NCBI GenBank assembly: GCA_025060325.1
Contig: JANXBW010000003.1
Coordinates: forward strand, 62,001-126,000
Length of the DNA stretch: 64,000 nucleotides
Source of the DNA: Thermoguttaceae bacterium
Lineage (GTDB): Bacteria > Planctomycetota > Planctomycetia > Pirellulales > Thermoguttaceae
Direction: 5' to 3'
This document shows positions 27,688 through 39,727 of the stretch, piece by piece. The first letter of the stretch is position 1; the number at the start of each line of letters is the position of its first letter. The notes beneath the pieces were generated by a model that saw only the letters and a program-made list of their open reading frames with translations, had not been told where the DNA came from and ran no database searches. The position numbers and the translations under genes were made by a program.

Positions 27688-28557
27688 ATGAAAATCGGCT
27701 TCCACACGGATGCATTTAACTCCGCTTACTGGAGCTTTGAAAAGTGTCTTGAGTGGGCGCGGGATCATGATGTCCACTATATTGAATGCGGGGTAATCGA
27801 CGGGGTCAGCTGGATCCATGGGCTGGGATACCAGCCGCACGTGGCCCTTTATGAAGATCCGGTGCTTTTGCGCCGCAAAATGAGCGCATACGGTGTCCAA
27901 TTTTCCCAGATCGATGCGGCATACCCACTTTCCGGGAAAGATGGTCCTTTGCGGGGCGTACCTTATGTCATGAAGGCCATCGCGTGGGCCCATCTTGTTG
28001 GCTCTCCGTGCGTGGACACGACCGACGGGCTAAAAGCCCCAAGCGATCTTACAGAAGAGGAGGCCATGGACCTCATGCGGCGAAGCTACGAACAGATCCT
28101 GGAAGTTGCCGAGGCCCATGGCATTATCATCAACATAGAGCCACATGGGCATTTTACTACCAAGCCAGAATTCATGGAGCGGATGCTCCGCTTTGTCGAC
28201 AGCCCGTACCTCCGCATGAATATGGATACGGGTAACACCTTTATTGCCGGGCAGGACCCGGTAGAATTTCTTAAGCGATTTATCCACAAGGTTTCACACG
28301 TCCACATCAAAGATGTTTCCGAGTCGCTTGCCCGAGCAACCCGGGGCAAGGAAACCGGTATCGCCATTAGCCATTGTGCGGTGGGTGATGGGGTCAACGC
28401 GGAGAATATCCGCCGCTGCCTAAAGATTTTGCGCGACCACGGCTACGACGGGGTCTTGAGTATCGAATGCGAGGGGCAAGGTGGTCCCATGTTAGAGCGG
28501 TCGCTGGCTTGGGTCCGACGAACTTTGCAGGAACTAGGTATTCCGGAGGAAAAGTAG
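27688..28557 (+). CDS. Cytoplasmic TIM-barrel sugar phosphate isomerase/epimerase-like protein
   Basis: 289 aa from the ATG at 27688, preceded by cggaggg; a GTG three codons upstream is in frame. No signal peptide. Xylose-isomerase-like TIM barrel: KIGFHTDAFNSAYWSFE at the start, YIECGVIDG, IINIEPHGHF (Glu/His), LRMNMDTGNTF, VSHVHIKDVSE and GVLSIECEGQGG, giving the usual Glu-Asp-His-Glu metal set. Related to the proteins at 26.5 and 52.4 kb but without export. Likely substrate is a keto-sugar or inositol derivative; this is inferred. Agmatine deiminase starts 47 bp downstream. Confidence 0.88.
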   Translation: MKIGFHTDAFNSAYWSFEKCLEWARDHDVHYIECGVIDGVSWIHGLGYQPHVALYEDPVLLRRKMSAYGVQFSQIDAAYPLSGKDGPLRGVPYVMKAIAWAHLVGSPCVDTTDGLKAPSDLTEEEAMDLMRRSYEQILEVAEAHGIIINIEPHGHFTTKPEFMERMLRFVDSPYLRMNMDTGNTFIAGQDPVEFLKRFIHKVSHVHIKDVSESLARATRGKETGIAISHCAVGDGVNAENIRRCLKILRDHGYDGVLSIECEGQGGPMLERSLAWVRRTLQELGIPEEK

Positions 28558-28604
28558 GATTTTCTTTAGCTTCGAAAGGAGATTTTGTCCACAGTAGCTA
28601 CACC

Positions 28605-29711
28605 ATGCAGGAAGCACCGAGCCAAGCGTCTCCTTCGGCGGATAAGGTGCGGGAATTCCTCGTCCGCCAGATAGCTCAAGGGTCAACACCGCGAAGCTGC
28701 GGTTACTACATGCCCGCTGAGTGGGTCGGCCATCGGGCCACGTGGCTGTCCTGGCCCCATAAACGGGAGAGCTGGCCGGGACTTTTTGAAGGCATTCCCC
28801 AACTTTGGGCGGAATTTGTCCGGTCACTCATTGCCGCCGGGGAGAAAGTCAACATTTTGGCCGGTGAGAGCGAAACTTTTCGCGAAGCGCAGCGCCTAGT
28901 AGGCAACCTGCCAGGGTGTCGACTCTTCGCCATCCCGACGGACGATGCCTGGATTCGCGATAGCGGGCCAACGTTTCTTGCTCGACATAACCCCAGCCTT
29001 CCCCCTGCGCTTGTTGACTGGCAGTATAACGCTTGGGGCGGGAAGTACCCGCCTTACGATCTTGACAATCAAATCCCTGCACGGATTGCCGAGCTTTTGG
29101 GCTACCGCCGTTTTGAGGTGCCCATTGTTTTAGAAGGCGGCGCCATTGACACAAATGGTTTAGGCGCTGCCCTCGTGGCCCGAGGGTGCCTTCTTTCGTC
29201 CACGAGGAACCCAGGACTGAGTGAAAGGGACTTAGCCGACTTTCTCCGCGAATATCTGGGCTTTGAGCACATCATTTGGGTCGACGGCATGCTTGTGGGG
29301 GATGACACCGACGGCCATGTTGACCAATTGGCTCGCTTTGTAGCGCCGCGGGTGGTCGTGGTGGCACGGGAGGATGACCCGTCCGATGAAAATTACAGCA
29401 TTTTGCGCGAAATTTATCGGATGTTAACGGCTGCCACCGATCAGGAAGGCCGGCCCATCGAGGTAGTTCCCCTTCCCATGCCCCGGCCTGTTTTTATACA
29501 AGGTCAACGCGTTCCGGCAAGCTATGTCAACTTTTACATTGCCAACACGGCAATTATCGTTCCAGGGTTTGAAGATCCGGCCGATCAGTTGGCTTGCGAC
29601 ACCTTGCGGAGGCTTTTCCCCGATCGGGAGATCGTAAAGCTTCCCGCTAGGCAGCTTGTCTGGGGATTGGGCGCCTTTCACTGTATAACCCAGCAGGAGC
29701 CTGCCCTCTAA
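28605..29711 (+). CDS. aguA: Agmatine deiminase (peptidylarginine deiminase family)
   Basis: 368 aa from the ATG at 28605. A clear aaaggag site lies about 25 bp upstream with no in-frame start nearby, so initiation may not depend on it. It converts agmatine to N-carbamoylputrescine and ammonia, on the route to putrescine. Signature segments: MPAEWVGHRATWLSWPH, DDAWIRDSGPTFL (substrate Asp), WGGKYPPYDLD, LEGGAIDTNG, DGHVDQLARFV (catalytic His/Asp) and the C-terminal nucleophile Cys360 in GAFHCITQQE. Length is normal for AguA. Other deiminases of the family, such as secreted peptidylarginine deiminase, are less likely because no signal peptide is present. Confidence 0.93.
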   Translation: MQEAPSQASPSADKVREFLVRQIAQGSTPRSCGYYMPAEWVGHRATWLSWPHKRESWPGLFEGIPQLWAEFVRSLIAAGEKVNILAGESETFREAQRLVGNLPGCRLFAIPTDDAWIRDSGPTFLARHNPSLPPALVDWQYNAWGGKYPPYDLDNQIPARIAELLGYRRFEVPIVLEGGAIDTNGLGAALVARGCLLSSTRNPGLSERDLADFLREYLGFEHIIWVDGMLVGDDTDGHVDQLARFVAPRVVVVAREDDPSDENYSILREIYRMLTAATDQEGRPIEVVPLPMPRPVFIQGQRVPASYVNFYIANTAIIVPGFEDPADQLACDTLRRLFPDREIVKLPARQLVWGLGAFHCITQQEPAL

Positions 29712-38317: not shown

Positions 38318-39727
38318 ATGACAACCGCGTTAAACGACCTATTGGAAAAATGGGCTGAGACCTCGCCTGACGATTTACAGCCGGAACAAGCCTATGACTT
38401 GGCATTTCGGCTAGGGGATTTCGCCCCGTACCTTTTAGCCGACAAAGTTCTTGAGAAAGCCACACAGCACTCGATTCGGCTTTTAGGGAATAGTAGTCCA
38501 CCCTTTCTACGCCGGAGGATTTCCCTCCAGGAGGCACTCCCCCCTGGTTCCTGTCCGATATTGGTGGCCAATCGTTCACCAGAGCGCTGCCGGTTGGTAC
38601 GTCCGGGTTTTGTATTTCCTGTGCGGTGGGTGGGGGCCCGCGAACATGATCGGCGACTCCCTAAGTCGCTGCATGAGACGGCGGATAAAGTACGGGCGGA
38701 GGTCGCCAAATACCTTGAGGCCATAAACAAGGACAGCTCTCCGGCCGCCGCGGGCCGACGTCCAGTGGAGGAGTATTTTCTTCGGCCAGAGCCCCCTGGA
38801 TTGCTTACTAATGTTGACACGGAGGCAGTATGCTGGGATTTCCAATCAGCATGGGCCACCTTGGTCGCGGGTTTGCTCCTGGCGTATTGGAATGCCACGC
38901 CGCGACCGGGCATCGTCGCAACGGGGGCGAGGGGCGAAGATAAAGTGGCGAAAGTCGATTGTGTCGAAGCGAAGGTGCAGGCGGCAATCGACTTTGGCGT
39001 CGAAGTCCTCTTTGTGCCCGACGAGCAGCATGAAGATTTCAAAGAGGTGGCCAATAGCTTAGGGGCGCAGCAGCTAAAGGTGCGAAAATTTGGTTCGCAA
39101 CCGGGATCCTGCCGGAAACTTTTAGGATTATATTTGGATGAATTGCAAGTTCCGCCCGGCAAGGATGCTCCTCAGGAAGATCGCGCCCGCTATTATTGGC
39201 TCCTGCAGGATCCCCGCAAGGCTGCGGACTATTACCAAGAGAATATCCTCCCCGAAGTGGCGGAATTATTGCGGAGAAAGCTGGAGGATTGCTCGGCGCA
39301 AATTTCGCATGTCGTCCTTAGTCTGTCACAAAGTCCCCAACTGGCGGAGCTTGTCGCTTTTGCTACTCGGCCGCAGAGCATTCTTGTGTTTACAAACGAA
39401 AACATCGAAAAGTATGAGGAGGAGTTCGACAGGTTTGTCAAAAATCACTTGCCGTCGACAAAGGTTATAAAAGCAAATGTTTCGGTGGGCTCAAGTTGGG
39501 ACGAGTTGCGGGATTGTTACTCACGATCCATCAAAAACTTCCTCGGGAGCGCACCACCGAATAGCGTTTTGGTAGATTTGACGGCTGGCAAAAAGATCAT
39601 GTCGCTTGCGTGTTTGGAGGCCTGCCCTCCCGGGGCGTGGTTGCTTTGTATCGAGTCATCAATGCTTGACGGCCGGATTAGACCTTTCACGGAAAAGTTT
39701 CATATCCTCCAGAAGCGGACCGCCTAA
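38318..39727 (+). CDS. Lon-like Ser-Lys protease domain fused to a CARF domain
   Basis: 469 aa, with tagggggc upstream of the ATG. Residues ~70-255 resemble a Lon-type protease domain: Ser177 (DFQSAW) aligns with the Lon nucleophile and Lys219 (CVEAKVQAA) with the Lon catalytic Lys (E. coli Ser679/Lys722; spacing 42 versus 43). GIVATGARG and VLFVPDEQ match the flanking strands. Residues ~325-465 form a CARF-like Rossmann domain (VVLSLSQSPQLAEL, SILVFTNE, VLVDLTAGKKIMS), with the DLT-GKK motif used for cyclic-oligonucleotide binding. No transmembrane segment is seen. CARF/SAVED proteases such as CalpL are activated by CRISPR type III signals. Here no cas gene or CRISPR array is in the window. 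Domain calls rest on motif reading. Confidence 0.72.
   Translation: MTTALNDLLEKWAETSPDDLQPEQAYDLAFRLGDFAPYLLADKVLEKATQHSIRLLGNSSPPFLRRRISLQEALPPGSCPILVANRSPERCRLVRPGFVFPVRWVGAREHDRRLPKSLHETADKVRAEVAKYLEAINKDSSPAAAGRRPVEEYFLRPEPPGLLTNVDTEAVCWDFQSAWATLVAGLLLAYWNATPRPGIVATGARGEDKVAKVDCVEAKVQAAIDFGVEVLFVPDEQHEDFKEVANSLGAQQLKVRKFGSQPGSCRKLLGLYLDELQVPPGKDAPQEDRARYYWLLQDPRKAADYYQENILPEVAELLRRKLEDCSAQISHVVLSLSQSPQLAELVAFATRPQSILVFTNENIEKYEEEFDRFVKNHLPSTKVIKANVSVGSSWDELRDCYSRSIKNFLGSAPPNSVLVDLTAGKKIMSLACLEACPPGAWLLCIESSMLDGRIRPFTEKFHILQKRTA

Follow-up and report, generated by a model that had tools for sequence, protein, structure and literature searches.

The gene at positions 38318-39727 on the forward strand of the window, the 64-kb stretch of DNA analyzed here (contig C33:62001-126000 of a 4.78-Mb genome), is predicted from its sequence and from the loci of its relatives to encode the protease half of a split, type III CRISPR-linked module that would release a sigma factor. 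The genes for the sigma factor, a weakly RelE/HigB-like protein and a candidate substrate were found together on another contig, C4. The fusion and its Ser-Lys pair observed in the first-pass annotation are confirmed, and the interpretation given there is supported in part. The present reading replaces two of its proposals, made from the window alone, that the protease stands alone and that it may answer to a signal other than that of type III CRISPR.

A 2022 review (PMC9704534), the only source of the term CARF-Lon in the literature searched, cites Makarova et al. 2020 for the prediction of fusions of a CARF domain with a Lon protease. The review speculates that CARF-Lon cleaves essential host proteins or acts promiscuously, and substrate or partner genes for CARF-Lon were described in none of the papers found. 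Since the architecture was already predicted in the work cited there and catalogued in PADLOC, the window protein itself is not new, and is a new member of the predicted, experimentally uncharacterized CARF-Lon family. New here are the module of sigma, RelE-like and partner genes and its split arrangement.

Lon-type core and CARF sensor of the window protein

The open reading frame begins with ATG, contains no internal stop and encodes 469 residues, the assignment being based on the open reading frame list, PADLOC and an alignment of 25 sequences. The PADLOC model CARF_m2--CARF_LON covers residues 8-465 with an E value of 1.8e-75, and the domain order, a Lon core followed by a C-terminal CARF domain, is identical to that of the CARF-Lon fusions already described (CARF_m2 group; Makarova et al. 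2020; PADLOC PDLC01981). Scans of the single sequence against Pfam and NCBIfam revealed CARF_Card1 and the Lon C-terminal domain below cut-off, and a search of PDB sequences with the single protein returned chance matches only. A profile of the 25 CARF-Lon sequences matched LonB of A. fulgidus in the Lon part (E 1.8e-8) and Csm6 in the CARF part (E 4e-9), so that both folds named in the first-pass annotation were recovered by profile searches.

The Lon-type proteolytic core was placed at residues 170-249 (38825-39064, forward strand) from the matches to Lon_C and TIGR00763, both below cut-off, and from the LonB profile alignment. Only three positions were invariant among the 25 homologues, W104, S177 and K219. 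Ser177 (38846-38848), the predicted nucleophile, aligned with the serine of the LonB GDSAS sequence, and Lys219 (38972-38974), the predicted general base, fell in the column of the LonB catalytic lysine. The residue numbers and the spacing of 42 given earlier for this pair are correct; the spacing is 43 in the relative at locus L018 (S169-K212). Based on alignment and conservation, the window protein is assigned as a Lon-fold protease whose Ser-Lys dyad is intact. It has the Ser-Lys proteolytic core in common with canonical Lon and LonB (S16), in contrast to which no AAA+ ATPase module was matched in the Pfam, NCBIfam or PADLOC scans, and regulation by the CARF domain is predicted instead. A transmembrane-like segment is absent as previously claimed, the best 19-residue hydropathy mean being 1.59.

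The C-terminal CARF domain extends over approximately residues 326-465 (39293-39712, forward strand) as indicated by CARF_Card1 (below cut-off), Csx1 and other CARF models with E values of 1e-5 to 1e-7, and the Csm6 match. The DLTAGKK motif is located at residues 420-426 (39575-39595), as had been noted, with D420 and G424 nearly invariant. The sensor is assigned from these matches as CARF and not SAVED, in agreement with the first-pass annotation. The proposal that the protein is a nucleotide-activated protease is retained as the best reading of this architecture, in which activation itself would follow from ligand binding by the CARF domain.

Gene surroundings and type III CRISPR systems

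The ten open reading frames flanking the gene were either of housekeeping type or without a Pfam family, those with a family encoding an Fe-alcohol dehydrogenase, PfkB, MetH, a CxxCxxCC protein and TruD. No CRISPR array was found in the 64-kb window, consistent with the earlier statement that it holds neither cas gene nor array, and no tRNA genes or Rfam family matches were found in positions 1-64000. Positions 28467-29708 strongly matched PF04371, the Porphyromonas-type peptidyl-arginine deiminase family.

Recent acquisition of foreign DNA was considered and is not marked by composition, the GC3 of the CARF-Lon gene being 0.58 compared to 0.60 ± 0.02 for its neighbors. There was no mobile-element scar around the gene, where repeats were limited to short diverged pairs, and a plasmid search gave no match. 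An empty-site comparison with congeners found that the flanks match different contigs. A scan of the contigs of the same genome with the window protein yielded 40 pattern matches, none of which was confirmed.

The genome contains two type III Cas10 genes, both on contigs other than that of the window, and a GGDD motif is present in both, for which reason synthesis of cyclic oligoadenylate is expected. One Cas10 gene lies with RAMP genes at the end of contig C29 (L028:15251-19020), and further RAMP genes with a gene for a Card1-like nuclease are located at the start of contig C46 (L026:3-5887). The gene order of locus L024 in a relative suggests that these contig ends are the two halves of one type III locus broken by assembly. 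The other Cas10 gene belongs to a Csm-type set on contig C36 that includes Cas6, Cas10 and Csm4. A search of the genome for type III cas10, put forward in the first-pass annotation, therefore has a positive outcome.

Type III genes were also found beside CARF-Lon in relatives. Cas6 is encoded downstream of or near CARF-Lon in L018, L019, L092, L093 and L104, Cas10 or RAMP genes lie near it in L024 and L100, and a Card1-like gene is near it in L023 and L101. Among 397 genomes of the order, cas10 was present in 17 of the 21 genomes with CARF-Lon (Fisher p 4e-15, phylogeny ignored), presence being defined by cut-offs of our own setting (E < 1e-50 for CARF-Lon and about 1e-7 for cas10). CARF-Lon is thus genetically linked to type III systems, with cas10 in the same genome and cas genes adjoining in relatives, results that do not support the earlier suggestion of another signal. 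The four CARF-Lon genomes with no cas10 match include G145 and G153, which are 97% and 91% complete and weaken the case for a strict type III requirement, although the search may have overlooked a divergent Cas10. Short CRISPR-like repeats were observed in L018 at the contig start (69-386), upstream of the four-gene module described below, and CRISPR-like repeats also occur in L101 (12114-14406).

Partner, middle and sigma genes in relatives and on contig C4

Homologues were sampled from 60 relatives, which yielded eight, and from the 397 genomes of the order, which yielded more. In 19 of 25 loci CARF-Lon was immediately preceded on its own strand by a partner gene encoding approximately 370 residues, and inclusion of a Phycisphaerales locus brought the count to 20 of 26. 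Upstream of the partner there was often a gene for a protein of approximately 260 residues, here called the middle protein, together with a sigma-70/ECF-like gene. The order sigma, middle, partner, CARF-Lon was found in L018, L020, L024, L093, L094, L095, L096 and L116. The sigma profile matched RpoE/SigE (E 2.6e-7), and sigma-70 region 2 (PF04542) was above cut-off in L020. The idea that an anti-sigma-type target might be encoded near homologues is borne out insofar as the genes found there include those of a sigma factor and of a candidate substrate. The partner was present in 16 of the 21 CARF-Lon genomes among the 397 (Fisher p 3e-20, phylogeny ignored), and the trees of CARF-Lon and partner were correlated with r 0.72, a value reached in 0 of 2000 permutations.

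In the structural model of the partner (mean pLDDT 77), a helical domain (residues 17-224) is connected by a linker of low confidence to a C-terminal domain rich in beta structure (residues 297-392). A fold search returned generic helical bundles only, a result that pertains mainly to the helical part and barely to the C-terminal domain, and no meaningful match emerged when all homologues of the partner and of the middle protein were scanned with PADLOC. A hydrophobic-Ala-Ala motif is present in the disordered linker of every intact CARF-Lon-paired partner read, including those of L096 (in the second frame) and L116. The motif is absent in L107 and L109, where no protease adjoins, and in L108, a set of only two or three negatives. 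This conserved motif, which reads V-S-L-A-A-A in the partner encoded on C4, is the predicted cleavage site. CARF-Lon proteases had been predicted for years without a target; the usual position of the partner beside CARF-Lon, its two-domain layout, the conserved linker motif and the sigma gene next door together make it a concrete candidate substrate.

An unlikely alternative, in keeping with the speculation in PMC9704534, is that CARF-Lon is a suicide protease, promiscuous or directed at host proteins, and that the sigma, middle and partner genes form an independent travelling defence cassette. Such independence would account for the CARF-Lon genes of L101, L102, L103 and L105, which lack a recognized partner, and for genomes G040, G102 and G175, which have a partner and no CARF-Lon. 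However, it would not be expected to place the partner so regularly upstream of the protease, to correlate their trees or to conserve a motif within the disordered linker; the partner of G040 adjoins another Lon-like gene, and L101-L103 carry unrelated or very diverged genes at the partner position. The upstream genes in L101 (7758-10001), L102 and L103 escape the partner and sigma profiles, yet occupy the same position, and their placement suggests that they are diverged or replaced partners.

The model of the middle protein (pLDDT 73) gave toxin-antitoxin entries in eight of the top nine rows of a structural search, of which six carry the name RelE or HigB, with weak Z scores of 4.8 (7vd7, the best), 3.6 (2khe) and 3.2 (3bpq), and a Foldseek search with the model gave no significant match. 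The middle protein has invariant His, Lys, Arg and Trp positions and an invariant Thr-Cys-Tyr stretch that suggest an active site. The modeled fold therefore weakly resembles RelE/HigB (BECR-fold) toxins, which is a lead and not a result. Were it followed to its end, the main output would be the toxin: CARF-Lon would destroy the partner as an antitoxin, the freed middle protein would cut mRNA, and the sigma factor would only regulate the operon. The top rows of the structural search and the presumed active site favor this possibility, which is nevertheless improbable considering that the Z scores are below 5, that Foldseek alone is without a significant match, and that the middle slot of L021, L097, L099 and L100 holds a protein of different appearance, with sigma-like and partner genes retained in several loci. 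These proteins (L021:4050-4967, L097:3342-4064, L099:3050-3991 and L100:10211-11068) contain a conserved TAF/TAYLPG-like stretch, and may possibly be an alternative effector.

In the genome of the window the sigma, middle and partner genes lie in an operon-like stretch at C4:63966-67109 (L034:7967-11110). A UvrD-like gene follows in convergent orientation, and there is no CARF-Lon at this locus. The own-genome copies are the sigma-70/ECF-like factor at C4:63966-64730 (profile match, E 1.5e-37), the middle RelE/HigB-like protein of approximately 279 residues at C4:64727-65566 and the partner of approximately 375 residues at C4:65982-67109. Both these genes and the window gene are well inside large contigs, which indicates that their separation is not due to an assembly edge. 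The congener G002 likewise has one CARF-Lon gene, beside Cas6, on a contig other than that of its partner, but both lie close to contig ends, and this separation may be one of assembly. The CARF-Lon and partner pair of the genome under study fits the tree correlation (row r 0.84). Most simply, the four genes formed one ancestral unit from which the protease gene would have moved away. The survival of the three genes on C4, together with the position of the partner in relatives, argues against a protease that is functionally stand-alone, and cautions that a seemingly isolated effector may have partners elsewhere in the genome.

A search for a promoter motif common to the window gene and the sigma operons gave none above shuffles. 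Given this result and the location on different contigs, the link between the CARF-Lon gene and the C4 genes in this genome rests on the relatives and on tree congruence. It might be supposed that the window gene was left behind as a remnant, inactive since it was separated from its operon, or that it answers a non-type III signal, as would befit a gene alone among housekeeping genes, with the two halves of the module on different contigs and no shared promoter motif. This is quite improbable, since the frame is intact, the dyad is invariant, the CARF motif is kept, and the C4 operon and both GGDD Cas10 genes are intact as well.

Proposed mechanism and comparison with known systems

The preferred reading is the split sigma-release module, in which a CARF-Lon activated by cyclic oligoadenylate cuts the partner encoded on C4 and thereby sets the sigma factor free, the RelE-like protein being a possible second arm; on balance we consider it probable. 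The mechanism is proposed on the grounds that the logic of the module is the same as that of CalpL/CalpT/CalpS and of type III-E systems. Cas10 would make cyclic oligoadenylate, binding of which by the CARF domain would switch on the Lon-family endoprotease. The likely substrate is the C4 partner and not the product of a window neighbor. The helical N-terminal domain of the partner would keep the sigma factor, and perhaps also the RelE-like protein, inactive until the activated protease cleaves the disordered linker at or near the hydrophobic-Ala-Ala motif. Once released by the cut, the sigma factor would serve an antiviral response at the level of transcription, and the middle protein could add a toxic effect. 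The split operon makes this candidate target of CARF-Lon testable.

Two further loci suggest that the trio of sigma, middle and partner genes is not bound to CARF-Lon. In G040 (contig C55), the trio is followed on the reverse strand by a gene for a protein of 1672 residues (L108:1384-6402) with a Lon-like stretch (E 5e-9, one-sequence search) retaining both the Ser and Lys columns, a match to an AAA_22/STAND-type NTPase and a long C-terminal part. From its sequence this is possibly a STAND-sensor Lon protease in which the sensor has changed and the protease has been kept. On a Fimbriiglobus contig (L118:8777-13762), a middle-like gene precedes one in which the N-terminal domain of the partner is fused to a helicase-like protein, read from sequence as SNF2. 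The fusion adjoins large histidine-kinase-ATPase-like and RecD-like genes, giving the locus the look of a defence island. Together L108 and L118 support an output module that stays the same while its inputs change. We tentatively raise the possibility, short of a probability, that the trio serves as an output module for defence in general and that its switch is exchangeable, being CARF-Lon in type III CRISPR genomes, Lon-STAND in L108 or the SNF2-type helicase-fused partner in L118. If so, different alarms would feed one proteolytic switch for transcription plus toxin. If cleavage of the partner is as proposed, the Lon-STAND variant further suggests that cutting of sigma inhibitors is not limited to CRISPR.

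In the CalpL/CalpT/CalpS system, the cA4-activated Lon-SAVED protease CalpL cuts the anti-sigma factor CalpT. The likeness to the module described here consists of a Lon protease sensing cyclic oligoadenylate (here predicted), a substrate gene and an ECF sigma factor in connection with type III CRISPR. The sigma factor and candidate substrate are neighbors of the protease in CARF-Lon relatives and lie at a separate locus in the genome studied here. CalpL senses through SAVED whereas the window protein has a single CARF domain, and the CARF-Lon module has an extra RelE-like gene. No likeness of the partner to CalpT was detected among PDB chains.

In type III-E, the substrate of Csx29 is Csx30, an inhibitor that binds CASP-sigma, and Csx31 is the third conserved gene. 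The same four-part logic recurs here, with a protease, a candidate two-domain substrate with a linker, a third conserved protein and an ECF sigma factor. Csx29 is a TPR-CHAT cysteine protease that associates with Cas7-11 and is controlled by RNA, in contrast to the protease described here, which is of the Lon serine type and carries a CARF sensor. The partner had no match to Csx30 among PDB sequences searched with the partner profile, in PADLOC or among folds, and the middle protein had no PDB or PADLOC match to Csx31. Since the sensor or protease type differs and no homology to Csx30, Csx31 or CalpT was found in these searches, a functional resemblance is argued and not family membership. If the proposed mechanism is true, CARF-Lon would be a third combination of protease and sensor, besides SAVED-Lon and CHAT, to have converged on the cutting of a sigma inhibitor during infection.
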